Assembly (NCBI RefSeq): GCF_020991415.1
Contig: NZ_JAJMOY010000001.1
Location: 310,001-374,000 of the forward strand
DNA: 64,000 bases
Reading direction: 5' to 3'
Origin: Flavobacterium sp. ENC
Lineage (GTDB): Bacteria > Bacteroidota > Bacteroidia > Flavobacteriales > Flavobacteriaceae
Shown here: positions 20,507 to 52,317 of the stretch, one piece after another
Position numbering within the stretch: the stretch's first letter is position 1
How the letters are laid out: every line of letters begins with the position of its first letter
Notes under the pieces: generated by a model
Told to the model about the DNA's origin: nothing
Databases searched by the model: none
What the model saw: the letters and a program-made list of their open reading frames with translations, nothing else
Position numbers and translations under genes: made by a program

Positions 20507-20766
20507 CCGCAAGGTCGTTATCAAAACGTTTTCTTAAATTTATTGCTGGAATTTTTCGCTCGCAGATTTTGCAGATAACGCAGATCTTTTAGAATGCATT
20601 TAATAATCTGCGTATGAATTATTTTTTTTTATCTGCCTTATCTGCAAAATCTGCGTGAAACAAAAAACATTTTAATTCTTATCCCGATAGCTATCGTGAT
20701 TGGCAAACTTTTTTACAAAATCCTTGCGAACCTTGCGTAAAACTTTGCGACCTTTGCGGTTAAACT
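20504..20766. repeat. Nested palindromic repeats between GH13 and GDPD genes
   Basis: An outer pair, TTAACCGCAAGGTCG on the left and CGACCTTTGCGGTTAA on the right, encloses a second inverted pair (GCAGATTTTGCAGATAACGC against TATCTGCAAAATCTGCG) and a short palindrome around CCCGATAGCTATCG. One repeat family appears to have landed inside another. Confidence 0.75.
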
Positions 20767-24979: not shown

Positions 24980-26089
24980 ATGTTTACAGCAACTGATTTT
25001 ATTCCAAAAAAATATACTTCGACTATCGAAACCGGAAACTTTGAATGGAGTGCTCCCAGCAATATTGCATTAGTGAAATACTGGGGGAAAAAAGACAACC
25101 AGATTCCGGCCAATCCATCGGTGAGTTTTACTTTAAGCAATTGCAAAACCATTACGAAGTTAGGTTTTGCAAAGCGATATACTTCTGCTCCGCTGAGTGG
25201 GACAACAGCCGTTTTTTCGTTTGATTTACTTTTTGAAGGAAAAACAAAAGAAGATTTCAAACCTAAAATCCAGAAGTTTTTAGAACGAATTGAAGTTTAC
25301 CTTCCGTTCCTCAAAGAATATCATTTTACGATTGATACCCAAAATACGTTTCCACATAGTTCCGGAATTGCTTCTTCGGCGTCGGGAATGGCTGCTTTGG
25401 CCATGAATTTTATGAGTTTGGAAAAAGAGCTGAATCCTGAAATGACAGCAGAATATTTTTACCAAAAAGCGTCATTTTTGGCTCGTTTAGGTTCGGGAAG
25501 TGCCTGCAGAAGCGTAAAAGGAAATGTAGTGGTTTGGGGAAATCAGGCTAATATTGAAGGAAGTTCGGATTTATTTGGCGTTGAATTTCCGTATACCATT
25601 CACGATAATTTCAGGAATTACCAGGATACTATTTTATTGGTCGATAAAGGCGAAAAACAGGTTTCAAGTACCGTTGGACATGATTTAATGCACAACCATC
25701 CGTATGCCGAAAGACGTTTCGCCCAGGCACACGAAAATGTGGACCTTTTAATTTCGATTTTTGAAAGTGGCAATGTTGACGAATTCATAAAAGTGGTCGA
25801 AAGCGAAGCTTTGACTTTACACGCCATGATGATGACTTCGATGCCGTATTATATTTTAATGAAACCAAACACATTGCAGATCATAAATGCCATTTGGAAA
25901 TTCAGAACCGAAACGCAGATTCCGGTTTGCTTTACGCTGGATGCCGGTGCCAATGTCCACGTTTTATATCCCGAAAACGTTAGCGAAAAAGTACTTCAAT
26001 TTATTCAGGACGAATTAGTTGTATTTTGCCAGAATGGTCAGTACATTTGCGATGAAATTGGAGACGGATCTTTATTAATTGATAATTAA
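24980..26089 (+). CDS. mvaD: Diphosphomevalonate decarboxylase
   Basis: The 369-residue protein carries GHMP-fold decarboxylase signatures: SNIALVKYWGKKDNQIP near residue 25, the phosphate-binding FPHSSGIASSASGMAALA, and CFTLDAGANVHVLY. The enzyme converts mevalonate diphosphate to isopentenyl diphosphate with ATP. Flavobacteria use the mevalonate pathway, and a GHMP kinase lies just downstream. The stop codon falls inside an inverted-repeat arm that borders the next small gene. Confidence 0.93.
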   Translation: MFTATDFIPKKYTSTIETGNFEWSAPSNIALVKYWGKKDNQIPANPSVSFTLSNCKTITKLGFAKRYTSAPLSGTTAVFSFDLLFEGKTKEDFKPKIQKFLERIEVYLPFLKEYHFTIDTQNTFPHSSGIASSASGMAALAMNFMSLEKELNPEMTAEYFYQKASFLARLGSGSACRSVKGNVVVWGNQANIEGSSDLFGVEFPYTIHDNFRNYQDTILLVDKGEKQVSSTVGHDLMHNHPYAERRFAQAHENVDLLISIFESGNVDEFIKVVESEALTLHAMMMTSMPYYILMKPNTLQIINAIWKFRTETQIPVCFTLDAGANVHVLYPENVSEKVLQFIQDELVVFCQNGQYICDEIGDGSLLIDN

Positions 26090-26093
26090 CAAT
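26082..26093. repeat. Left inverted-repeat arm of the four-helix-bundle cassette
   Basis: ATAATTAACAAT here is repeated in inverted orientation as ATTGTTAATTAT at 26475-26486. The two arms bracket the four-helix bundle gene. This arm overlaps the mvaD stop codon. Confidence 0.6.
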
Positions 26094-26117
26094 TGTCAAT
26101 TAATAATTAGTAACTTT

Positions 26118-26468
26118 ATGGAAAAGAAAAACATTATTAAAGAAAAATCTTTTGCTTTTGCAATTGACATTGTGAACCTTTATAAAGTCTTGATTGACAA
26201 AAAAGAATTTGTTTTGTCCAAACAGTTTTTACGTTCAGGAACATCAATTGGTGCAAATGTAAGAGAGTCTGAGCATGCTCAAAGTAAAGCAGATTTTATC
26301 CATAAATTATCAATTTCATTAAAAGAAGCAAACGAAACAGAATATTGGCTAGATTTGTTATACGAAACAAAATATCTTTCTGATGTCGAATTTCAAAATA
26401 TTAAACCTAAAATCATAGAATTATTAAGATTGCTTACGAGTATCATAAAAACTTCTAAAAACATATAA
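26118..26468 (+). CDS. Four-helix bundle protein (S23/IVS-like)
   Basis: From the ATG at 26118 the protein has 116 residues. It shows the family's typical pattern: KSFAFAIDIVNLYKVL, SKQFLRSGTSIGANVRE, QSKADFIHKLSISLKEANE, TEYWLDLLYE. This family includes proteins encoded in intervening sequences of 23S rRNA genes and the Avd accessory proteins of diversity-generating retroelements; most copies have no known role. Here it lies between two mevalonate-pathway genes and is bracketed by inverted repeats, which suggests insertion as a cassette. A longer in-frame start at 26079 would overlap mvaD and is unlikely. Confidence 0.88.
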   Translation: MEKKNIIKEKSFAFAIDIVNLYKVLIDKKEFVLSKQFLRSGTSIGANVRESEHAQSKADFIHKLSISLKEANETEYWLDLLYETKYLSDVEFQNIKPKIIELLRLLTSIIKTSKNI

Positions 26469-26474
26469 TTATCC

Positions 26475-26486
26475 ATTGTTAATTAT
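26475..26486. repeat. Right inverted-repeat arm of the four-helix-bundle cassette
   Basis: ATTGTTAATTAT is the exact reverse complement of 26082-26093, and adjoining bases are also similar. It ends 13 bases before the GHMP kinase ATG. Confidence 0.6.
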
Positions 26487-26498
26487 TCATTTTCAATT

Positions 26499-27437
26499 AT
26501 GAAAGGACCCTTATTTTACTCAAAAATATTACTCTTTGGAGAATACGGAATCATCCGCGACTCTAAAGGACTTTCTATCCCTTATAATTTTTATAATGGT
26601 GCTTTGAAGAAAACCGAAAATCCTTCGGCTGAAGCAATCGCATCAAACGCAAGTTTACAACGTTTTGTAATTTATCTTGAGACGTTACAAACAGAACAGC
26701 CCGAACTGGTTACTTTTGATTTGTCTTCCCTAAAAAATGATGTTGAAACAGGCATGTATTTCGATTCAAGTATCCCGCAAGGATATGGGGTTGGAAGCAG
26801 CGGTGCACTTGTTGCTGCAATTTATGATAAATATGCGGCTAATAAAATTACGGTTTTAGAGAACTTAACCCGCGAAAAACTATTACAGTTAAAAAATATA
26901 TTTTCTCAGATGGAGAGTTTTTTCCACGGAAAAAGTTCTGGTTTAGATCCTTTAAACAGTTATTTAAGTATTCCGATTTTAATCAACTCTAAAGATAATA
27001 TTGAAGCAACCGGAATTCCGACTCAGAGTTTTGACGGAAAGGGTGCTGTGTTTTTATTAGATTCAGGAATTGTTGGTGAAACGGCTCCGATGGTAAACAT
27101 TTTTATGGAAAACCTGAAAGACAAAGGTTTCCGTACGATGCTTAAAAACCAATTTGTAAAATATACAGATGCCTGCGTAGAAAACTTTTTGCATGGTGAC
27201 ATGAAGTCGTTGTTTACCAATACCAAAAAACTTTCCAAAGTTGTTTTAAACAATTTCAAACCAATGATCCCGGAGCAATTTCACGGAATCTGGCAGCATG
27301 GTATTGATACTAATGATTATTACTTAAAACTTTGCGGCTCAGGAGGAGGCGGTTATATTCTTGGTTTTACAGAAGACCTGGAACGTGCTAAAGTTTCCCT
27401 TAAAGATTACAAACTTGAAGTTGTTTACCAGTTTTAA
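26499..27437 (+). CDS. GHMP kinase, probable mevalonate kinase
   Basis: The 312-residue protein begins GPLFYSKILLFGEYGIIRDSKGLSIPY, the substrate-binding start of mevalonate kinases. It has the ATP loop IPQGYGVGSSGALVAAIY, then SGLDPLNSYLS and a C-terminal GSGGGGYILGFT motif. It phosphorylates mevalonate or a later intermediate. The position after mvaD supports a mevalonate pathway role; phosphomevalonate kinase is the main alternative. Confidence 0.88.
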   Translation: MKGPLFYSKILLFGEYGIIRDSKGLSIPYNFYNGALKKTENPSAEAIASNASLQRFVIYLETLQTEQPELVTFDLSSLKNDVETGMYFDSSIPQGYGVGSSGALVAAIYDKYAANKITVLENLTREKLLQLKNIFSQMESFFHGKSSGLDPLNSYLSIPILINSKDNIEATGIPTQSFDGKGAVFLLDSGIVGETAPMVNIFMENLKDKGFRTMLKNQFVKYTDACVENFLHGDMKSLFTNTKKLSKVVLNNFKPMIPEQFHGIWQHGIDTNDYYLKLCGSGGGGYILGFTEDLERAKVSLKDYKLEVVYQF

Positions 27438-27552
27438 ATTGTAATTTTTCTTCTAATTAGCCGTTACTGTAAATAGTATTACTACTGATTTTCCTTTTTA
27501 ATTTGCTACTTTGTCTGATTTTTTTTATTAAAAAATAACCCGTTAACCCAAA

Positions 27553-28509
27553 ATGTTAAGCAGAAAGAATAAAATTTTAGCGATGAAAGTTATTAGTTTA
27601 TTCTCTGTAGTGAGAGGTTATAACATTCCCATTATTGTTTTAGCACAGTATTTATCGGCTATTTTTATCTTGGCTCCCGACAAAAGAGCTTTAGACATTT
27701 TACTTGATTTCAAATTATTTCTGATTGTCTTTGCCTCAGCAATTACAATTGCTTCCGGATACATTATCAATAATTTTTATGACAGTCAGAAAGACCTGAT
27801 CAACAGGCCCAACAAATCAATGCTGGACAGGCTGGTGAGTCAGAAAACTAAATTATCGGTATACTTCACTTTGAATTTCATGGCTGTATTAATGGCCCTT
27901 ATTGTTTCCTGGCGTGCTTTTTTATTCTTTTCCGTTTATATTTTCTTAATTTGGTTTTACTCACATAAAATAAAAAAATACCCGATTATTGGTAATTTAA
28001 CTGCGGCTTTACTGGCTGTAATTCCGTTTTTTGCCATCTTACTCTATTTTTACAACAAAATATCCTTTGAAGAAATTGAAGATCACATGAGCCATTTTGC
28101 AGTGATTTCAGCACATGCAATGTTCTTGTTTTTATTGCTTTTGATTCGCGAAATGATAAAAGATCTTGAAAACCTGAAAGGCGACCTTGCAAACAATTAC
28201 AAGACCATTCCGATATTATACAATGAAACAACTTCAAAACAAATCATTACGGTTTTAACCTTTTTGACGATTTTTCCGGTTTATATCCTGATTAATATTT
28301 ACGATGTGGGCTTTATGGATATCTATTTTTATGTCTGTTTTGTTGTAATGCTTTTTTTTCTTTTATATCTCTGGAAATCAAACTCAAAAGAACAATATTT
28401 ACTACTTCACAATGTATTGAAATTCCTGATCGTTTCCGGGGTTTTCTGCATTGTTTTAATCAATCCGAGTGTTTTGTGGCATGGCAAGAGTCTGCTGTTG
28501 AGATCTTAA
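27553..28509 (+). CDS. UbiA-family prenyltransferase, geranylgeranylglycerol-phosphate type
   Basis: This 318-residue polytopic protein has about eight or nine hydrophobic segments and a UbiA-type prenyl diphosphate site (YIINNFYDSQKDLINRPNKS). A second acidic site reads REMIKDLENLKGDLANNYKT. In Flavobacteria such proteins are annotated as geranylgeranylglycerol-phosphate geranylgeranyltransferase-like. Placement beside mevalonate genes supports a prenyl-lipid role. Its true acceptor is unknown. Two alternative starts exist; an ATG at 27583 (MKVISLFSVVRGYN) may be the real one. Confidence 0.85.
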   Translation: MLSRKNKILAMKVISLFSVVRGYNIPIIVLAQYLSAIFILAPDKRALDILLDFKLFLIVFASAITIASGYIINNFYDSQKDLINRPNKSMLDRLVSQKTKLSVYFTLNFMAVLMALIVSWRAFLFFSVYIFLIWFYSHKIKKYPIIGNLTAALLAVIPFFAILLYFYNKISFEEIEDHMSHFAVISAHAMFLFLLLLIREMIKDLENLKGDLANNYKTIPILYNETTSKQIITVLTFLTIFPVYILINIYDVGFMDIYFYVCFVVMLFFLLYLWKSNSKEQYLLLHNVLKFLIVSGVFCIVLINPSVLWHGKSLLLRS

Positions 28510-28519
28510 TTTAGTATCG

Positions 28520-28587
28520 ACAGAGATTTTCAAATTCACACAAAACTGCATAAGGTTCGCTACATATCTTTATGAATCTCTGTGTAA
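28520..28587. repeat. ACAGAGATT-family imperfect palindrome
   Basis: ACAGAGATT near 28520 and AATCTCTGT near 28576 form the arms of an imperfect hairpin between the prenyltransferase and pseudouridine synthase genes. A longer copy of the family lies at 33868-33966. Confidence 0.5.
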
Positions 28588-28655
28588 CTATACCCAAAAA
28601 ACAATAGCTACTAATCTAAGAACAATGAACTTAGGATTATTTAGCAAGAATAAAC

Positions 28656-28663
28656 TATCTTTG
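28656..28663 (+). promoter_or_regulatory. -7 element upstream of the pseudouridine synthase
   Basis: TATCTTTG matches TAnnTTTG. It lies between two possible ATG codons (28625 and 28682), which indicates that 28682 is the real start. Confidence 0.5.
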
Positions 28664-28681
28664 CACAAATTACAGAATTAT

Positions 28682-29590
28682 ATGAACAATAAGGAAGGCA
28701 ATAATAACAGAGGCGGATCGAGACCAAATAGCTCCAGATCAAACTCTAACAAGCCAAAACCTGCCATGCAAAAGCGTGCTCAAGGGCCGAAAAAAGTGAA
28801 ACCTGCTGTGAAAGCAGCTGAAGAAGAAGCGGCACAAAAAATTAAGAAACAAAATCAGGCGCCAAAAAGACAAAAAGCTGCAGACGAAATTCGTCTGAAC
28901 AAGTACATCTCAAATTCTGGTGTATGCTCGCGTCGTGATGCCGATATATACATTCAGTCCGGTAACGTTAAAGTGAATGGTGTCCCGGTTACTGAAATGG
29001 GATATTTAGTGAAATTAAATGATGTTGTAAACTTTGACGGTGTTGTTCTGACTCCTGAAAAGAAAGAATACATCTTATTGAACAAACCTAAAAACTTTAC
29101 AACTGCCTTAGACGAAGGTCAGGAATACCGTAATGTGCTGGAATTAGTTCGTGGTTCAACTACCGCTAAAATTGCCCCTATTGGCAGAATGGATAAAAAC
29201 ACAACCGGTTTGTTGCTGTTTACCAATGATACGGATATGATTCGTAAGTTCACATTACCGAATCAGAAATCATCTAAAATTTATCAGGTTTCTTTAGATA
29301 AAAATCTAAAATTTGAAGATTTGGAAAAAATCAGCAAAGGTCTTGTTCTTGACGGACACCGTGTTTTTGTTGAAGAAATCAGTTATATTGAAAAAGAAGC
29401 GAAAAGTGAAGTGGGTCTTAAATTACGTTCATCTAATGTAAAGGTCGTACGTGCAATTTTCGAAAACTTTGAGTATGATGTTTTACGTATAGATCGTGTT
29501 TCTTTTGCCGGTCTTACCAAAAAGAATTTACCACGTGGTAACTGGCGTTTTCTGACGGACCAAGAAGTTATTAATTTGAAAAACGTTTAA
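28682..29590 (+). CDS. RsuA/RluB/RluF-family pseudouridine synthase
   Basis: From the ATG at 28682 the protein has 302 residues. A basic, low-complexity, probably disordered N-terminal tail (about 75 residues rich in Asn, Lys and Ala) precedes an S4 RNA-binding domain (IRLNKYISNSGVCSRRDAD). The catalytic domain has the active-site Asp in IGRMDKNTTGLLLFTND. The enzyme isomerises a uridine in rRNA, most likely 23S. The long tail is common among Flavobacteria. A promoter -7 box inside the upstream alternative reading supports this start. Confidence 0.92.
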   Translation: MNNKEGNNNRGGSRPNSSRSNSNKPKPAMQKRAQGPKKVKPAVKAAEEEAAQKIKKQNQAPKRQKAADEIRLNKYISNSGVCSRRDADIYIQSGNVKVNGVPVTEMGYLVKLNDVVNFDGVVLTPEKKEYILLNKPKNFTTALDEGQEYRNVLELVRGSTTAKIAPIGRMDKNTTGLLLFTNDTDMIRKFTLPNQKSSKIYQVSLDKNLKFEDLEKISKGLVLDGHRVFVEEISYIEKEAKSEVGLKLRSSNVKVVRAIFENFEYDVLRIDRVSFAGLTKKNLPRGNWRFLTDQEVINLKNV

Positions 29591-29613
29591 TAAACGATTC
29601 AAATCAATCATAC

Positions 29614-29650
29614 AAATCCTGTTTTACTGCTGTAAAATGGGATTTTTTAT
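29614..29650 (+). terminator. Terminator after the pseudouridine synthase
   Basis: AATCC and GTTTTAC pair with GTAAAA and GGATT around a short loop, followed by TTTTTTAT. It lies 24 bases after the stop codon. Confidence 0.7.
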
Positions 29651-29672
29651 TTAAGAATATTTGTTGAAAATA

Positions 29673-30272
29673 CTAAAAGAAGTTGTGTCCGAAAAGTGTA
29701 AAGATTGATCTTCCCAAGTTGGCCTGATTTTTATCATCTACTGATTCGTAACACGAAAAACCAAGTATAATTTTAATTCCGGGATGAATACTATTCAGGA
29801 TATCTCTTTTTTGTTCTTCCAGTAGTAGTTTTAAACTGTCTAAAAGCTGGATATTGTTTTTCAGATACGAAACGACTAATAGTGCTGAAAAATTTAAAAT
29901 TTCCCTTGCTGTTTCGCTTTTGATTCCGACTTCATTTGAAATCATTTCTGAAATTCTTCCTTTTTTGTTGGTGAAAATTTCTTTTAGCAAATCATTCCCT
30001 TCTACTCGATAACAATCATCTACGGAAAGAATTCTTCCGGAAGCAAAATCAACTTCGCCATAAAATGTTGAATTGTCGCCAATCAGTGAAATAATTTCTT
30101 TATAAAAACCCGACTCCTCTGATTTATTATACAATCCCATCAGCACTGTTCCTATTGAAACATCAATTCCTTTTATTAGAAGGGCATCATTTTCAAAATA
30201 AAATTTATTCAGCTTTGAAACAACATTGGAAGATATAAAACGTCTAAGTTCAATTTGTAGGTTTGGAGTCAT
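29673..30272 (-). CDS. DUF937-like protein
   Basis: This 199-residue soluble protein has repeated helical segments and the DUF937 pattern (ISSNVVSKLNKFYFENDALLIKGIDVSIGTVLMGLYNK; ISEMISNEVGIKSETAREILNFSALLVVSYL). Proteins of this group are often found as single genes in Flavobacteria and their role is unknown. No signal peptide or catalytic motif is visible. The next gene on the same strand is about 280 bases upstream, so it is probably transcribed alone. Confidence 0.75.
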   Translation of the reverse strand: MTPNLQIELRRFISSNVVSKLNKFYFENDALLIKGIDVSIGTVLMGLYNKSEESGFYKEIISLIGDNSTFYGEVDFASGRILSVDDCYRVEGNDLLKEIFTNKKGRISEMISNEVGIKSETAREILNFSALLVVSYLKNNIQLLDSLKLLLEEQKRDILNSIHPGIKIILGFSCYESVDDKNQANLGRSIFTLFGHNFF

Positions 30273-30554
30273 GATATTTAATTTTTAGAAATTATTTAAA
30301 TCCATTCAAAATAATCGACAAAGTGGGGCTTTTAATCGTTTATCAGGATAAAAATATAAAATATTTTAACATTTCCAAAAGATCAGTTAAAAATTTCCTT
30401 AAGCATTTATGACGTATTTAACATCAAATTCTAAAAGTCTCAATGAACATAACCCTTTCGTAATCAAAAACAAATAAAAAAAATTAAAAGAAATTTAAAA
30501 TATTTTTCAAAAAAAATAAAAAAATAAGAAAAAGCTTAAACCTAAAGTGAAATT
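30273..30554. other. AT-rich intergenic region
   Basis: This 282-base stretch between the DUF937-like and DUF456 genes is very rich in A runs. I see no gene, no RNA and no convincing palindrome. It should hold the promoter of the DUF937-like gene on the minus strand. Confidence 0.5.
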
Positions 30555-31055
30555 TTAAAACAATACACTTCGGTTTTGCCACACTATACTGATAAAAATA
30601 CCGACAAAAATGATACAAAAGAGGAAATTAATAAAACTGGAAGCCAAAAATCCGAGTAAGGATCCCGTTGCAGCTTTTAGTGCCCTGCGATGATTTTGAG
30701 AATCATAGATAAGTTCTCCTATAAAAGCCCCGACAAATGGACCAATAATTACACCAAAAGGAATCGGAGAAAGAATCCCAACTATTAGACCAATATTGGT
30801 GCCCCAGACTCCGTAAGAACTGCCTCCGAACTTCTTAGTCCCTTTTGCCGGAATCACATAATCCAGAATCGTAATAACTACTGTTATTAAAAGTGTAATC
30901 CCTAAAACCCAATAATTATTTTCAACTGCTTTTGTTAAATACAACAATAATAAACCTACCCAACAACTGGATAATCCCGGTAAAACCGGCATAAAACTGC
31001 CGAATACACCAACAATCATGCAAACAAAACCAAGTACTAGCAATACTGAATCCAT
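30555..31055 (-). CDS. DUF456 family membrane protein
   Basis: From the ATG at 31055 the protein has 166 residues with Gly/Pro-rich membrane segments (GVFGSFMPVLPGLSSCWVGLLLLY; KKFGGSSYGVWGTNIGLIVGILSPIPFGVIIGPFVGAFIGEL), characteristic of DUF456. Glycine-zipper-like helices suggest membrane packing, but the role is unknown. A longer frame from 31088 adds an unlikely basic/aromatic extension. Confidence 0.88.
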   Translation of the reverse strand: MDSVLLVLGFVCMIVGVFGSFMPVLPGLSSCWVGLLLLYLTKAVENNYWVLGITLLITVVITILDYVIPAKGTKKFGGSSYGVWGTNIGLIVGILSPIPFGVIIGPFVGAFIGELIYDSQNHRRALKAATGSLLGFLASSFINFLFCIIFVGIFISIVWQNRSVLF

Positions 31056-31214
31056 ACGAAAAAAATATTTTTTTATAAGACAAAACAAAATTGCTGTTTA
31101 AAACAATAATGTCTTTCAGAAAGCTACGAAGAATATCTGTAATACAAAGGTTCTCAAAAAAAATAATTGTATTTTTATACCATAATTAATTTAGTTCAAT
31201 TCAACATCATAATC

Positions 31215-31700
31215 TTGAAGCAGTTCCCTCTTTTTTTAGTCGTATTACTTTTAAATTCTTGTCAATATTTTGAGAAGCAGGTTCCGTCTGAAAAAGAATT
31301 ATTACAAAAAGAACTGAAATCGATTAACTGGAAAGAAGTAGATGAATTTCCGTCTGTCGCCGATTGCGAAAAAATAGCAGACAAAAAACTGCGTCAGCAC
31401 TGTTTTTTTGAAAAAATGGCACAGCTTATTCAGGAAAAACTGGATGTAGATTCCTTGTCTATTCTTTATCCTGAACTGGATACTATTGAGGTAAAAGTAA
31501 CCGTATTTCCTAACGCTACAATGAAATTCGAGCCACAATTCCCAAAAGATTCCGTTGCTTATGACACTATTAAAATCGACAGCATCCTTCATGCACGCCT
31601 GGTTGATTTTCCAAAAGTAAATCCTGCTATCAAACGCGGAGTTCCGGTAAAAACCCAGTTTATTCTTCCGGTAATTATCAAAGAAAAAAGTACGAAGTAA
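31215..31700 (+). CDS. Small lipoprotein of unknown function (TTG start)
   Basis: No ATG occurs in the 5' part of this frame. A TTG at 31215 gives MKQFPLFLVVLLLNSCQYFEK, a textbook lipoprotein signal with Cys 16, and a 161-residue protein. An upstream TTG at 31167 would place a hydrophobic extension before the signal, which is less likely. The mature part has DCEKIADKKLRQHCFFEKMAQLIQEKL and resembles the energy-transducer-like proteins whose C-terminal region follows the TonB fold in Flavobacteria, but the relation is weak. The function is unknown. Confidence 0.7.
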   Translation: MKQFPLFLVVLLLNSCQYFEKQVPSEKELLQKELKSINWKEVDEFPSVADCEKIADKKLRQHCFFEKMAQLIQEKLDVDSLSILYPELDTIEVKVTVFPNATMKFEPQFPKDSVAYDTIKIDSILHARLVDFPKVNPAIKRGVPVKTQFILPVIIKEKSTK

Positions 31701-31787
31701 ATTTCTGAAAACTTTTAAGTTTGAAGTTTTTAAGAGTATTCGGTTTTCTTTACGCAACCTTTGAAGCATTTCTTCTTAGATAAAAAG

Positions 31788-32891
31788 CTATACTCTAAAG
31801 TTTCGCCCCTTCCATTTGTAAGAACCAAACAAACTGTACAAAGCAACAGCCGAACTGAAGAAAGGGTAAAACAAACTATTTAAAACCAAGCTCTTAATTG
31901 GTCTGCGTGTTAAAAATTGATTGGTGACATACAACAAGCCAAAATCAATTATGAATTTTGAAACGGCATATAAAATCAAAAGTTGCCATGACCAGATCCC
32001 AAAAATCGCAAATACAGTTCCGATTACGAAACTCAAATTTGCAAAGAAAACTATCAGTCCCAACACTTTTCCAAAGATGCTTTGATAGGAACTTGTTTTC
32101 GCCGCCCACCGTACCCTTTGGTAAAATAGTGATTCCCAGTCCTGGGTTGGTTTTGTTTTTACAATCGTTTCTTCTGATTTTAAATAATGCATCAGGTTTT
32201 GGTCTGAATTTGCAACTTTTTGGAGTAAAAAAACGTCATCTCCGCTTGCAATAGCATTGTTTCCTTCAAAACCATTCATTTTTTCAAATAATGATTTGGT
32301 ATAAGCAAAATTTGCCCCATTGCACATAAAAGCTTTTTTTATTCCAAAGCTCCCAATGGTTGCGCCCTGCAGGCTCGTTAAATCTAATTGCTGAAAATGA
32401 TGCAAAAACGAATTGTTGGCCTCATAAGTAACAGCACCGGCAAGCATAGAAACTTCGTTTTCCTGAATGTAATTATCAAAAGTTAACAACCAATTTGAAT
32501 GAACGGTACAATCTGCGTCGGTGGTAATCACCCAATCTGTTTTTACGTGTTTCATTGCCGTGGAGATGGCATCTTTTTTAGGAGATTTCGAAACCCTGAT
32601 AGTATCAATGATCCTAACTTGGAATTTAGAATTTGGAATTTGGAATTTTTCCGCAGATTCATCATCCACTAAAATGACTTCAAATAAATCAGCCGGATAA
32701 TTCAGTTTTGAAAAACTTTTTAAAAGGTGGGGCAAATTCTCCGCTTCATTTCTGAAAGGAACAATAATGGTGAAACTCGTTTGTGGCTCCAGATTCGTAT
32801 TTGCATATTTTTTTACTTTGAAAAAACCATAAATCAGTACGCCAATCGTAATGATGTAAACGGCTAATATGAGGAATAAGGCCAGATTCAT
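31788..32891 (-). CDS. Family 2 glycosyltransferase, membrane-anchored
   Basis: This 367-residue protein has an N-terminal membrane helix, a GT-A domain (FTIIVPFRNEAENLPHLLKS; VILVDDESAE; WVITTDADCTVHSNWL with the metal-binding DAD; ASGDDVFLLQK) and the QRVRWAAK motif, then two to three C-terminal membrane helices. It transfers a sugar to a lipid or polysaccharide acceptor at the inner membrane. It overlaps the next upstream gene by 4 bases, so the two form an operon. The acceptor cannot be read from sequence. Confidence 0.9.
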   Translation of the reverse strand: MNLALFLILAVYIITIGVLIYGFFKVKKYANTNLEPQTSFTIIVPFRNEAENLPHLLKSFSKLNYPADLFEVILVDDESAEKFQIPNSKFQVRIIDTIRVSKSPKKDAISTAMKHVKTDWVITTDADCTVHSNWLLTFDNYIQENEVSMLAGAVTYEANNSFLHHFQQLDLTSLQGATIGSFGIKKAFMCNGANFAYTKSLFEKMNGFEGNNAIASGDDVFLLQKVANSDQNLMHYLKSEETIVKTKPTQDWESLFYQRVRWAAKTSSYQSIFGKVLGLIVFFANLSFVIGTVFAIFGIWSWQLLILYAVSKFIIDFGLLYVTNQFLTRRPIKSLVLNSLFYPFFSSAVALYSLFGSYKWKGRNFRV

Positions 32892-33832
32892 TTTACAGTT
32901 TTCGCTTTAAAATTCAGCACATAATAACTGCCTAAAATCACCGGTAAAACGACATTTAAAAACCACATCAAAGTCGAAATAAAAACGACAATCCATTCAT
33001 TAACGCCTAGAATTCCAAAGAAATAGACCGCAACACTTCCTTTAACTGCAAAATCCAGAAACTGAAAAGTGGGCAGCGATGAAGCCAAAAAATATACTAC
33101 TGCAATCGTTGCGATTAGCGTAAAATAGGGTAGTTCAACATCAAAAGCCAAAAACAAAAAGTAATATTGATGTGAAAAAACCAAGTAACGGCAAGTGCCT
33201 AAAACTATATTTTTCTGATGAACCGGCTTTGGAATTTCATTGATTTTATGAAGCAGTTTTTCTATCGAATATACCTTGATTTTAATCTTTTTCAAAGAGA
33301 ACAAAATGCCGAAGAACAAAAAGAAAACGACAAATAAAATGGCAACGGTTTGAGGTGTAATTACATTGTATTTGGCATTAAAATACAGCAAACCGAAAAC
33401 ACCAAAAATCACCGTTAGGATCATCTGGATTCCGTTACAGATCAGATTGAGAAAAACCACTTTCTTTGCTTCTGCTTTGGGATAAAACAATGCTTTTCCG
33501 GCGTACTCTCCGACTCCGTTTGGTGTAAAAATTCCGGCGGTTAAAGCTGCCAGAACCTGTCTGGTGGCTTCTCCTATTGAAATTTCGTGAATTACCCTGA
33601 CCAGATTCTGCCATTTCAAAATTTCAAAATACCGGTTTAAAACACTCAAAAGCAGAATAAAGGCAATTCCTGAAACAGACTGGTTTTTACGAAATAAAGT
33701 GATAAATTTCTGCCAGTCGAGTTTATCGTTGTGTGCCAGCTGATTGTAAATAAAATAAAATGCACCGCCAACAATCAAAAGTTTGACCAGAAGAACAAGG
33801 AATTGTTTAGCTTTGTGGGGAATTGAAATCAT
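32888..33832 (-). CDS. UPF0104/lysylphosphatidylglycerol synthase TM-like protein
   Basis: This 314-residue membrane protein has about eight hydrophobic segments and the family's central region AALTAGIFTPNGVGEYAGKALFYP. Members contain the flippase-like part of MprF without the synthase part, and are often paired with glycosyltransferases. The downstream glycosyltransferase overlaps it by 4 bases, so a joint role in moving or building a lipid-linked sugar is plausible inference. Confidence 0.85.
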   Translation of the reverse strand: MISIPHKAKQFLVLLVKLLIVGGAFYFIYNQLAHNDKLDWQKFITLFRKNQSVSGIAFILLLSVLNRYFEILKWQNLVRVIHEISIGEATRQVLAALTAGIFTPNGVGEYAGKALFYPKAEAKKVVFLNLICNGIQMILTVIFGVFGLLYFNAKYNVITPQTVAILFVVFFLFFGILFSLKKIKIKVYSIEKLLHKINEIPKPVHQKNIVLGTCRYLVFSHQYYFLFLAFDVELPYFTLIATIAVVYFLASSLPTFQFLDFAVKGSVAVYFFGILGVNEWIVVFISTLMWFLNVVLPVILGSYYVLNFKAKTVK

Positions 33833-33867
33833 GCTGCAAAGTAAAGCAAACTATTGCGAAAAAGCTA

Positions 33868-33966
33868 TTTCACAAAGATTCACAAAGTAACCTCAAAGTT
33901 ACACAGAAAGATTAAAACAAACTTAGTGAATCTCTGTGACTATTTGGTGAAACTTTGTGTAACCCT
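33868..33966. repeat. TTCACAAAG/CTTTGTGTAA palindromic repeat
   Basis: The left half (TTCACAAAGATTCACAAAG, then AAGTTACACAG) is complementary in order to the right half (CTTAGTGAATCTCTGTGAC, then AACTTTGTGTAA). It fills nearly the whole space before ruvC and belongs to the family seen at 28520-28587. Confidence 0.65.
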
Positions 33967-33976
33967 CTAATAAAAA

Positions 33977-34531
33977 ATGACAAAAGAACGCATCATATTA
34001 GGCATTGACCCCGGAACAACAATTATGGGTTTCGGACTGATTAAAGTCATCAATAAAAAAATGGAATTCCTTCAGCTGAACGAATTGCAGCTTTCTAAAT
34101 ATGACAATCATTACCAGAAGCTTAAAATTATTTTTGAACGTACCATAGAATTAATCGAAACGCATCATCCCGACGAGATTGCCATCGAAGCCCCTTTCTT
34201 TGGTAAAAACGTGCAATCGATGCTAAAGTTAGGCCGTGCGCAAGGTGTCGCCATGGCAGCGGGACTTTCCAGAGATATTCCGATTACGGAATACGAACCT
34301 AAAAAGATCAAAATGGCCATTACCGGAAACGGAAACGCCAGCAAAGAACAGGTTGCCAAAATGCTGCAACAGCTTTTAGGATTAAAAGAACTACCGAAGA
34401 ATCTCGATTCCACCGATGGTCTTGCAGCAGCAGTCTGTCATTTCTTTAACTCCGGAAAAATCGTTGCGGGAAAAAGTTACACCGGCTGGGATGCTTTTGT
34501 GAAACAGAATGAAGAACGAGTGAAAAAATAG
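33977..34531 (+). CDS. ruvC: Holliday junction endonuclease RuvC
   Basis: This 184-residue protein has the RNase H-fold catalytic acids in ILGIDPGTTIMGFGLI, AIEAPFFGKN and the C-terminal DSTDGLAAAVCHF. Residues PITEYEPKKIKMAITGNGNASKEQV form the DNA-contact region. The enzyme resolves Holliday junctions with RuvAB. It is a full-length family member. The gene is followed by a hairpin repeat and hemW. Confidence 0.97.
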   Translation: MTKERIILGIDPGTTIMGFGLIKVINKKMEFLQLNELQLSKYDNHYQKLKIIFERTIELIETHHPDEIAIEAPFFGKNVQSMLKLGRAQGVAMAAGLSRDIPITEYEPKKIKMAITGNGNASKEQVAKMLQQLLGLKELPKNLDSTDGLAAAVCHFFNSGKIVAGKSYTGWDAFVKQNEERVKK

Positions 34532-34610
34532 TTTTCAGTCGCAGTCGCAGTTGGCAGTTTTACTGAGACTGAGACTGAGACTGAGACTGAAAACCGAGAC
34601 TGAAAACTAA
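34532..34610. repeat. CAGTCGCAG / CTGAGACTGAGA hairpin repeat
   Basis: CAGTCGCAGTCGCAG near 34536 is followed by several copies of the hexamer ACTGAG. The halves are roughly complementary and can form a hairpin. It fills the ruvC-hemW gap. Confidence 0.65.
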
Positions 34611-34613
34611 AAA

Positions 34614-35768
34614 ATGAGCGGAATCTACATCCACATACCCTTCTGCAAACAGGCTTGCCATTATTGCGATTTTCATTTTTCGACTTCCATGAAGAAAAAA
34701 GAGGAAATGGTTTTGGCTCTCGCCAAAGAAATCGGGATGCGCAAAAGCGAGTTTGAGCTTCCCGACTCCGCCCAAAGTGACAACACCATTGAAACCATTT
34801 ATTTCGGCGGTGGAACACCTTCTGTATTGACAAATGAAGAAATCAATTTTTTAATTTCAGAAGTTTATAAAAATTACAACGTCTCCGAAAATCCGGAGAT
34901 TACGCTTGAAGCCAATCCCGATGATTTGTCGGCAGAACGAATTCTTGAATTATCGAAAAGCCCGATAAATCGTTTAAGCATTGGAATTCAGTCTTTTTAT
35001 GAAGAGGATTTAAAGATGATGAATCGTGCTCATGATGCCACAGAAGCAATAAATTGCCTGACAGAAGCGACAAAATATTTTGACAATATTTCACTGGATT
35101 TAATTTATGGAATTCCGGGAATGAGCGATGAAATGTGGGAACAGAATATTGAAACAGCATTGAGTTTCGGCATTCCGCATATTTCGAGTTATGCCTTGAC
35201 GGTGGAACCAAAAACGGCTTTAAGAAAACTTATCGATACCGGAAAGATTGCCGAACCACAAGATGATGTGGCTTCTAATCATTTTATGATTTTGGTGGAA
35301 ACGCTTGAGAAAAGTGGTTTTATTCATTACGAATTATCGAATTTCGGAAAAGAGAATTACTTCTCCAAAAACAATTCCGCTTATTGGCTGGGAAAAAAAT
35401 ACATCGGAATCGGGCCTTCGGCACATAGTTATGATGGTCTAAAAAGAGGCTGGAATATCGCCAATAATTCACTTTATATAAAATCAATTCAGGAAAACGT
35501 ATTGCCTATTGAAACTGAAACGCTATCAAAATCAGATCGCTATAACGAATATATCATGACAGGACTACGAACTATCTGGGGCGTTTCTCTCGAAAGAATT
35601 GAAACTGAATTCGGACCTGACTATCTGATTTATCTGAATAAACAAACTCGGAAATTTCTTGATGACGATTTACTTTTTATTGAAAATAATATCCTTAAAC
35701 CAACCGCAAAAGGAAAATTTTTAACGGATGGAATTGCTTCAGATTTATTTTATCTAAATTTGGAATAG
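34614..35768 (+). CDS. hemW: HemW-like radical SAM protein (heme chaperone)
   Basis: This 384-residue protein has the radical SAM cluster motif in IPFCKQACHYCDF (CxxxCxxC), then YFGGGTPSVL, ANPDDLS and RLSIGIQSF. It lacks evidence of true coproporphyrinogen oxidase function; the family is now viewed as a heme-trafficking chaperone. Residues about 41-57 (ending ELPDSAQSDN) are encoded by half of an intergenic-type palindromic repeat (34733-34782), just before the conserved TIETIYFGGG. The reading frame remains open, so the gene probably tolerates the insert. Confidence 0.93.
   Translation: MSGIYIHIPFCKQACHYCDFHFSTSMKKKEEMVLALAKEIGMRKSEFELPDSAQSDNTIETIYFGGGTPSVLTNEEINFLISEVYKNYNVSENPEITLEANPDDLSAERILELSKSPINRLSIGIQSFYEEDLKMMNRAHDATEAINCLTEATKYFDNISLDLIYGIPGMSDEMWEQNIETALSFGIPHISSYALTVEPKTALRKLIDTGKIAEPQDDVASNHFMILVETLEKSGFIHYELSNFGKENYFSKNNSAYWLGKKYIGIGPSAHSYDGLKRGWNIANNSLYIKSIQENVLPIETETLSKSDRYNEYIMTGLRTIWGVSLERIETEFGPDYLIYLNKQTRKFLDDDLLFIENNILKPTAKGKFLTDGIASDLFYLNLE
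34733..34782. repeat. Half palindrome repeat inside the hemW reading frame
   Basis: CGGGATGCGCAAA and CCCGACTCCGCCCAAAGTGACA match the reverse complement of the 16786-16843 element (CGGGATGCCGCAAA; CGACTCCGCCCGAACTGACA). The length keeps the hemW frame. Confidence 0.65.
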
Positions 35769-40258: not shown

Positions 40259-40393
40259 TTAACCGCAAGGGACGCAAGGTTTTACGCAAAGCACGCAAGA
40301 AAAAACCATAAAAAACATCCTATTAATTAGGATGTTTTTTTATATAAACTTTTGCGAACACTGCGTAAAACCTTGCGTCCCTTGCGGTTAATT
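40259..40393. repeat. Complete AACCGCAAGG palindrome enclosing a terminator
   Basis: TTAACCGCAAGGGACGCAAGG at the left and CCTTGCGTCCCTTGCGGTTAA at the right are perfect reverse complements, with GTTTTACGCA/TGCGTAAAAC continuing the pairing. A small hairpin sits in the centre. This is the best-preserved copy of the family in the window. Confidence 0.85.
40310..40341. terminator. Bidirectional terminator between convergent genes
   Basis: AAAAAACATCC (40310-40320) and GGATGTTTTTT pair across TATTAATTA. Runs of A on the left and T on the right let it terminate transcripts from both directions, fitting its place between the convergent PH-protein and DUF4407 genes. Confidence 0.8.
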
Positions 40394-51741: not shown

Positions 51742-52208
51742 TTTTTGAGGTTCTAAGGTTCTGATTTACTAAGTTTTTGAGTTTTTTTTGCCACTAATTA
51801 CACGAATTTTCGCGAATTTTTATTTTGCCACAGATTAATTGATTTCAATGATTTAATGTATGTTTTATTTTTTTTACTCTACACTTATAGTTGTTGCTCT
51901 ACAAATGTAGAGATTAATTTTTAATGTGCAAGAGAATTTTAGAAAAAAGGTTTTTTTAAGGTACAAAGAGGCAAAGGTGCTAAGGTTTTTTCTTAGGTCC
52001 TGAGGTTTTCTTTTGAGGTTCAGTAGGCAGGTGCAAAGAGGCAGAGGCTCAAAGGAACAAAGGCTTTTTTGAGAGGCAAAGGTGCATAGATGCAGAGGTA
52101 CAAAGGTTTTTTCAATAGCCCCCAGCTTTAGCTGGGGGTTTACAATAGTGCAGAAGAAAATGGCTTTAGCCAAATAATTAACCCGAAGATTAAAAATTTC
52201 GATTAAAG
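51742..52208. other. Gene-free region of repeats
   Basis: The stretch holds a CCACAGATT-family fragment (51788-51850), repeated AAAGGTGCAAAGAGGCA-like words (51955-52110) with inverted counterparts at 52262-52316, and a perfect CCCCCAGC/GCTGGGGG hairpin near 52121-52139. The only open frame, on the minus strand, is repeat-derived and repetitive in composition, so I do not call a gene. Confidence 0.7.
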
Positions 52209-52238
52209 CAAAAAAAAACTCCGGCTAAAAGCCGGAGT
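52209..52238 (-). terminator. Terminator of the M20 dipeptidase gene
   Basis: ACTCCGGCT (52218-52226) and AGCCGGAGT (52230-52238) are perfect reverse complements. On the minus strand the hairpin is followed by a run of T. It lies about 80 bases after the dipeptidase stop. Confidence 0.85.
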
Positions 52239-52317
52239 CTCTATAATTTAAAACACATACGGTGCCAAAACCTTTGCACCTTTGCTCCTATGTTCCTTTG
52301 CACCTTTTTCCAAAAAC

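Follow-up and report, generated by a model that had tools for sequence, protein, structure and literature searches.

What a small gene of the 23S rRNA intervening sequence (IVS) type is doing among the mevalonate genes of Flavobacterium sp. ENC, and what the repeats on either side of it are, is the question raised by the 64,000 nucleotides analysed here (contig NZ_JAJMOY010000001.1, positions 310,001 to 374,000; hereafter the window, whose first letter is position 1). The gene encodes a four-helix-bundle (FHB; 23S rRNA IVS / S23-type) protein of 116 amino acids and lies between mvaD and a GHMP kinase gene. A preliminary description had proposed that inverted arms of at least 12 bases bracket this gene, that the left arm supplies the stop codon of mvaD, and that the whole is a cassette able to spread by recombination or with foreign help. 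Our analysis indicates that the locus probably belongs to a family of repeat-bounded cassettes that also has gene-less derivatives, the mvaD copy being a long-resident member.

The FHB gene occupies 26118–26468 on the forward strand (ATG at 26118–26120, stop codon at 26466–26468). Its product is a member of PF05635 (E 4.9e-30; 104.3 bits against a cut-off of 33.8) and TIGR02436 (E 4.5e-32; 110.5 bits against 24), and these matches confirm the small IVS-like gene between mvaD and the kinase. Related solved structures are 2rld (E 2.7e-40) and 2gsc, both five-chain entries, and the closest named protein among the matches listed was that of Flavobacterium sp. LC2016-23 (97% identity). By sequence and repeat scan, the left arm (26072–26110) is an array of words of about 7 bases, AATTGAT, AATTAAC, AATTGTC, and AATTAAT, which also forms a hairpin of its own; the right arm (26466–26498) carries similar words inverted and ends at the kinase start codon. 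A 12-base pair is exact, with ATAATTAACAAT at 26082–26093 and its reverse complement at 26476–26487, and longer imperfect arms of 26 nt (26077–26102 and 26466–26491) are 81% complementary. The mvaD stop codon TAA (26087–26089) indeed falls within the left arm. The sole gene between the arms matched only PF05635 in Pfam, the element contains no transposase gene, and an Rfam search of 25500–35500 gave no match.

We examined whether such arms exceed chance by an arm score: the 150 bases upstream were compared with the 150 bases downstream in reverse complement, and the best local match was scored. Other copies with arms, by which the preliminary description proposed to check its reading, were found: the ENC genome has 11 PF05635 (FHB) genes, and the family occurs in 60 of the 61 genomes searched, ENC included. 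Ten of the 11 ENC copies scored at least 28, compared with 14 of 706 open reading frames (ORFs) taken from 864 kb of the same genome, and two of these 14 were themselves FHB genes. The mvaD–kinase copy scored 29, a value reached by 12 of the 706 ORFs including itself; the copy below 28 was L004 (score 21). The comparison was extended to 170 best-matching FHB loci with flanks of 200 bases (177 minus 4 duplicates, and the resulting 173 minus 3 without flanks). In this set, 149 loci scored at least 28 in the inverted orientation and 42 in the direct orientation, and the inverted score exceeded the direct one in 155.

The arms are tandem arrays rather than simple inverted repeats. After removal of five loci with short arms from the 149, periodicity beyond that of 95% of 100 shuffles was observed in 140 of the 144 testable loci. 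The best step was 7 in 109 of the 144, 8 in 18, 6 in 11, 10 in 4, and 11 in 2; step 6 was seen in close relatives of L006, step 8 in relatives of L001, and step 10 in relatives of L002 (at most 6 examples per step). The period is largely conserved and the word variable. Arms differ among the FHB copies of one genome and are alike within a protein subfamily; words that differ by subfamily are not the fixed terminal inverted repeats of an insertion sequence or a classical transposon. In the L006 subfamily, CAG/AGT words were recognised by eye in the arms of 29 of 30 loci; as the protein diverges, these words drift from CAGTCT/CAGTCG to AGTGTTC and AGATTGC. Outside Bacteroidota, loci of the L007 type, such as L107 (titled Citrifermentans bremense), keep AATTGAC-like words, and L117 (titled Oscillatoria sp.) has long arms with TCAACTG-like words.

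The relation between protein and word was quantified by a Mantel test on 149 loci, 21 of the 170 having been left out for an arm score below 28. Protein similarity and word similarity were correlated with r 0.80 over all 149 loci and with r 0.71 over the 9857 pairs at different places, where places were separated by translated flank matches and some distant-species pairs at one place may count as different; p was 0.001, the floor of 999 permutations. For the 75 loci of the L007 type, which fall into 22 place clusters, mean word similarity between places was 0.55, compared with 0.13 to other subfamilies; for the 30 loci of the L006 type, in 14 place clusters, it was 0.39, compared with 0.12. 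The arm word follows the protein subfamily and not the place. Furthermore, the ENC genome itself holds one cassette with its arms at two places with unrelated flanks: L004 repeats the L005 element in broken form, with one internal stop and similar arms, and its flanks do not match L164, which is collinear with L005. Separately, L006 and L161 have a common left neighbour gene, opposite orientations of the FHB gene, and different right neighbours, which suggests a rearrangement at the arms.

Hairpins of the same words occur without a gene. A hairpin of CAGTC words takes up all of the space between ruvC and hemW in the window, from stop codon to start codon (34532–34613, no strand assigned), as found by repeat scan, RNA folding, and comparison with relatives; the predicted fold of 34525–34620 had −35.6 kcal/mol with a z of −6.19. 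Of 20 relatives, 5 have a CAGTC hairpin in this gap and 2 (G102 and G065) an L006-type FHB cassette; in 12 others the hairpin consists of other words, and the remaining one carries another insertion. Elsewhere in the ENC genome, an AATTGAT hairpin lies between two genes that we take to be nuoC and nuoD; the gap is short and without a hairpin in 20 of 20 relatives, and the hairpin gained in ENC stands in place of a short AT-rich stretch. Cassettes with the gene also differ between relatives: G015 and G006 carry one at a gap that is empty in ENC and, by collinear alignment, in G008, and the comparison of L165 with L175 was without clear polarity. A search for decayed FHB genes in 18 gene-less repeat stretches found none (best E 0.045). 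Gene-less hairpins were also observed in the window at 20561–20655, 40259–40391, and 51958–52298, with the words GCAGAT, CGCAAGG, and CAAAGG, some of which, by eye, do not resemble the FHB arms of ENC. Dense hairpins elsewhere in ENC (C1:438119–439350, C1:400195–400455, C12:5051–5432, and C12:243293–243589) carry CACGAATT, AATCTGC, and CGCAAAG words, which by eye match none of the FHB arms of this genome.

REPIN–RAYT systems combine dispersed intergenic hairpins with a rarer gene that has matching flanks, and the FHB family resembles them in both respects. Matches of arm words outside genes, for the true and the reversed word, were 10/0 for L001, 16/0 for L003, 12/0 for L006, 3/0 for L007, and 2/0 for L008; five of ten arm types, with a clean control and 2–16 matches, accordingly have dispersed hairpins whose words match those flanking the partner gene. 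The systems differ in that the gene in the FHB frame is PF05635 and not a Y1 (HUH) tyrosine transposase, and in that the words are variable but the period largely constant. We know of no catalytic site in FHB proteins.

Genome-wide counts of two word patterns were compared in 121 genomes, the arms of the FHB genes being included in the counts. The CAGTC pattern, CAGTYNCAGTYNCAGT, gave 904 matches against 19 for the reversed control, and the AATTRAY pattern, AATTRAYAATTRAYAATT, gave 703 against 129. In the 17 genomes that have an L007-type FHB gene of at least 73% identity, the median number of AATTRAY matches was 13; in the 104 others it was 1 (p 1.4e-8, uncorrected for phylogeny), and the reversed control in the same groups gave p 0.34. 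For CAGTC, the median was 37.5 in 8 genomes with an L006-type FHB gene of at least 77% identity, 1 in 33 genomes with one of 54–72%, whose arms carry other CAG words, and 1 in the 80 other genomes, which include G026 and G136 with partial or broken matches (counts 1 and 2).

These numbers also bear on a different explanation, in which AT-rich repeat hairpins arise and spread by slippage or through another agent and FHB genes settle in their loops as guests of no use to the hairpin, much like the S23 ORFs found within extended helices of 23S rRNA. The hairpin words do far outnumber the FHB genes (138 CAGTC matches in ENC, overlapping within arrays, with 0 for the reversed control, against 11 FHB genes), five genomes have many CAGTC matches without a matching FHB gene, and different word types occupy the one site between ruvC and hemW. 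Moreover, IVSs are described as replacing rRNA tetraloops (PMC4990558). However, a guest of random hairpins would not be expected to have words that follow its protein subfamily at different places (the r of 0.71 above), nor the same arms at different loci as in L004 and L005. We therefore regard the hairpin-first order of events as rather unlikely and retain a cassette family with gene-less derivatives.

FHB matches also included 27 plasmid records and 2 phage records, and plasmid loci from other phyla have similar frames built of other words. In 7 of 8 plasmid loci inspected (Bernardetia, Treponema, Euhalothece, Anabaena, two Nostoc, and Planktothrix), the inverted-arm scores were 45–72 and the words, of about 7 bases, were by eye all different. 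Some of these lie in other operons: as annotated, the FHB gene with word arms on the Anabaena plasmid (L322, 1024–3115) stands between cas2 and cas1, and that on the Planktothrix plasmid (L325, 1–3318) stands between drmD and the defence-system gene pglX.

The cassette might alternatively act in RNA. The arms would then pair in the transcript, RNase III would cut the stem, and the FHB segment would be freed from the mvaD–kinase mRNA as in 23S rRNA IVSs. An S23-type ORF between inverted arms is what such an element would have, and the Coxiella IVS has a 28-bp stem that RNase III cuts in vitro (PMC4990558). In the predicted fold of the mvaD cassette, however, the arms were unpaired with each other and the left arm folded on itself (z −1.24, with 12 of 100 shuffles as good), so that a long RNA stem joining the arms is unsupported by this one prediction for one copy. 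Across 49 mvaD loci, the inverted match beat the direct one in 44, and own left/right pairs beat mixed pairs in 26 (p 0.14); pair-specific compensation between the arms, or co-variation of this kind, is therefore unsupported. We consider an element working at the RNA level improbable.

How the mvaD copy came to its place was examined from its neighbours and relatives. The left neighbour (24980–26089, forward strand) is an mvaD-like gene of the diphosphomevalonate decarboxylase family (PF22700, E 4.6e-34; TIGR01240, E 2.6e-43, under the curated cut-off). The right neighbour (26499–27437, forward strand) is a GHMP / mevalonate-kinase-like gene (PF00288, E 1.1e-6; TIGR00549, E 4.8e-17, under its cut-off), and a UbiA-type prenyltransferase gene comes next. 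The preliminary description would have given up its reading if the FHB gene were always at this junction across the family. In fact, only 4 of the 29 congeners retrieved have the gene here; the other 25 lack it at this junction. Counting ENC, 5 of 30 junctions have the FHB gene, and 5 (L015, L020, L027, L030, and L031) have about 560 bases with small ORFs. In 4 more (L018, L019, L023, and L026), a single small ORF lies in about 290 bases, and the other 16 junctions span only 2–83 bases. A ParE-type toxin gene was detected in both of the junctions of about 560 bases that were tested, L015 and L020, and the frame in L027 looks broken. The mvaD–kinase junction is a hot spot for small cassettes. 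By eye, the empty junction L024 ends in left-arm words, and several others show right-arm-like words beside the kinase start. The left arm at the L028 junction is longer, with about twelve TAATTGA heptamers, and so points to expansion of the array in 7-base steps.

Among the matches listed from named genome records, 48 of the 80 best FHB loci lie at the mvaD–kinase junction, and by their record titles these include Mariniflexile, Tamlana, Lutibacter, Gramella, and Christiangramia. Over the 49 mvaD loci, distances between mvaD genes were tracked by FHB distances (r 0.782) no less closely than by kinase distances (0.786), which shows near-vertical inheritance of the mvaD copy. Given the shared junction and the distances that track mvaD, this copy is an old resident with probable repeated loss, the loss being deduced from the patchy distribution. 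On the same two observations, a recent hop into the mvaD–kinase junction was rejected. They might also suggest a small gene, conserved as part of the mevalonate operon, whose AT-rich flanks are incidental; this is very improbable, since an ordinary operon gene is contradicted both by its presence in only 4 of 29 congeners and by subfamily members with like arms in 21 other place clusters. The proposal of a spreading cassette stood in part: empty sites, other armed copies, the L004/L005 element at two places, and relatives that differ in being occupied or empty agree with it, whereas the mvaD copy as a recent mobile insertion is unsupported, and the arms are not fixed transposon ends.

Intergenic heptamer repeats are familiar from cyanobacteria as the short tandemly repeated repetitive (STRR) sequences, which consist of short tandem 7-base words. 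Similarly, the TAACTGA heptamer repeats of Beggiatoaceae, cyanobacteria, and Bacteroidetes (PMC4679880) resemble the FHB arms in being 7-base tandem words between genes with a patchy distribution over phyla; they are described as direct repeats, and the main text of that article does not use the words 'S23', 'four helix', or 'intervening'. The BrickBuilt MITE (miniature inverted-repeat transposable element) of Porphyromonas gingivalis (PMC4596501) is, like the FHB frame, an intergenic Bacteroidetes element with tandem repeats and small inverted ends, but its unit is 23 bases and its abstract mentions no FHB gene. The nearest described elements are the S23 ORFs in 23S rRNA IVSs of Leptospira and Coxiella (PMC4990558), which have the protein family in common with the cassette and an ORF framed by inverted sequences, and for which mobility was proposed earlier (PMC4990558). 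The present cassette differs in lying outside an rRNA gene, in the mvaD–kinase gap, and in having subfamily-specific tandem word arrays as arms, which the predicted RNA fold leaves unjoined. In titles and abstract openings, mostly of open-access articles and with preprints excluded, no tie of FHB/S23 genes to short tandem repeat arms was found.

Homology of Avd (4DWL), from diversity-generating retroelements, with the PF05635 structure 2GSC has been suggested (PMC10053308). In our profile search the FHB protein did not match Avd structures, and the reverse transcriptase expected of such a retroelement was not found, RVT_1 having no match in the ENC genome. Y1_Tnp had three matches elsewhere in the ENC genome and none in the FHB-carrying genomes G004, G076, and G077. 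As for the foreign help envisaged in the preliminary description, a reverse transcriptase or a Y1 transposase as an obligatory resident helper is thereby unsupported.

Taken together, these comparisons show, at the sequence level, the frame, its inverted order and periodicity, and a coupling of word to protein subfamily. In the model that we favour, the cassette belongs to a widespread family of small intergenic elements, each with an S23/IVS-type FHB gene between two inverted arrays of tandem words; 7 bases is the usual word length, and some subfamilies have 6, 8, or 10. The FHB protein would bind its own word array, as an RNA hairpin or as single-stranded DNA, and would promote the copying or upkeep of that array; recognition of the array and aid in copying or keeping it are the most likely role of the protein. 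By analogy with RAYT genes and REPINs, gene-carrying cassettes and gene-less hairpins would spread together. At mvaD and several other sites, the arms reach from the stop codon of the upstream gene almost to the start codon of the downstream one, a span that would let the cassette sit inside an operon such as mvaD–kinase. The cassette at the mvaD junction is now transmitted vertically and has probably been lost repeatedly.

Several observations weigh against this model. The 170 loci are best matches and no random draw, and in a mispaired-arm control over all loci only 10 of 117 (121 minus 4 with short flanks) exceeded the 99th percentile of mispaired arms. Few loci beat this control because related loci share words, and we therefore rely on the ORF null, the direct orientation, and the coupling of word and protein. 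The result for own and mixed arm pairs at the mvaD loci points the same way, and L246, one of the 30 L006-type loci, shows no word arms. Arm words of L005 (2/0), L009 (2/1), L010 (4/2), L002 (8/5), and L011 (13/13) were barely or not above the reversed control, which is uninformative for L002 and L011 because their words read alike backwards. The inclusion of the FHB genes' own arms in the word counts and the lack of phylogenetic correction weaken the associations, and G004, G075, G086, G106, and G137 have at least 20 CAGTC matches without an L006-type FHB gene. Inspection by eye of two pairs of occupied and empty sites gave no evident target-site duplication. On plasmids, the direct score exceeded the inverted one at the Treponema (85 vs 45) and Planktothrix (87 vs 59) loci, with both orientations present, and the Monoglobus locus scored 26 vs 27 with its gene end mis-set.

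The S23/IVS proteins are described as having no known function (PMC4990558), and short tandem repeat arrays as having no evident mechanism of transmission (PMC4679880). We tentatively raise the possibility, which we hold to be less likely than its opposite, that S23/IVS-type FHB proteins write or maintain tandem arrays in which the step is fixed, usually at 7 bases, and the word drifts yet stays alike in both arms. They would then be the missing agent behind the heptamer arrays of Bacteroidetes, cyanobacteria, and others, and the 23S rRNA IVSs would be a special case that became trapped in an rRNA helix. The tie between protein family and repeat word at different places, together with a step that is largely retained when the word changes, would offer one testable answer both to the function of S23 and to the origin of the arrays.

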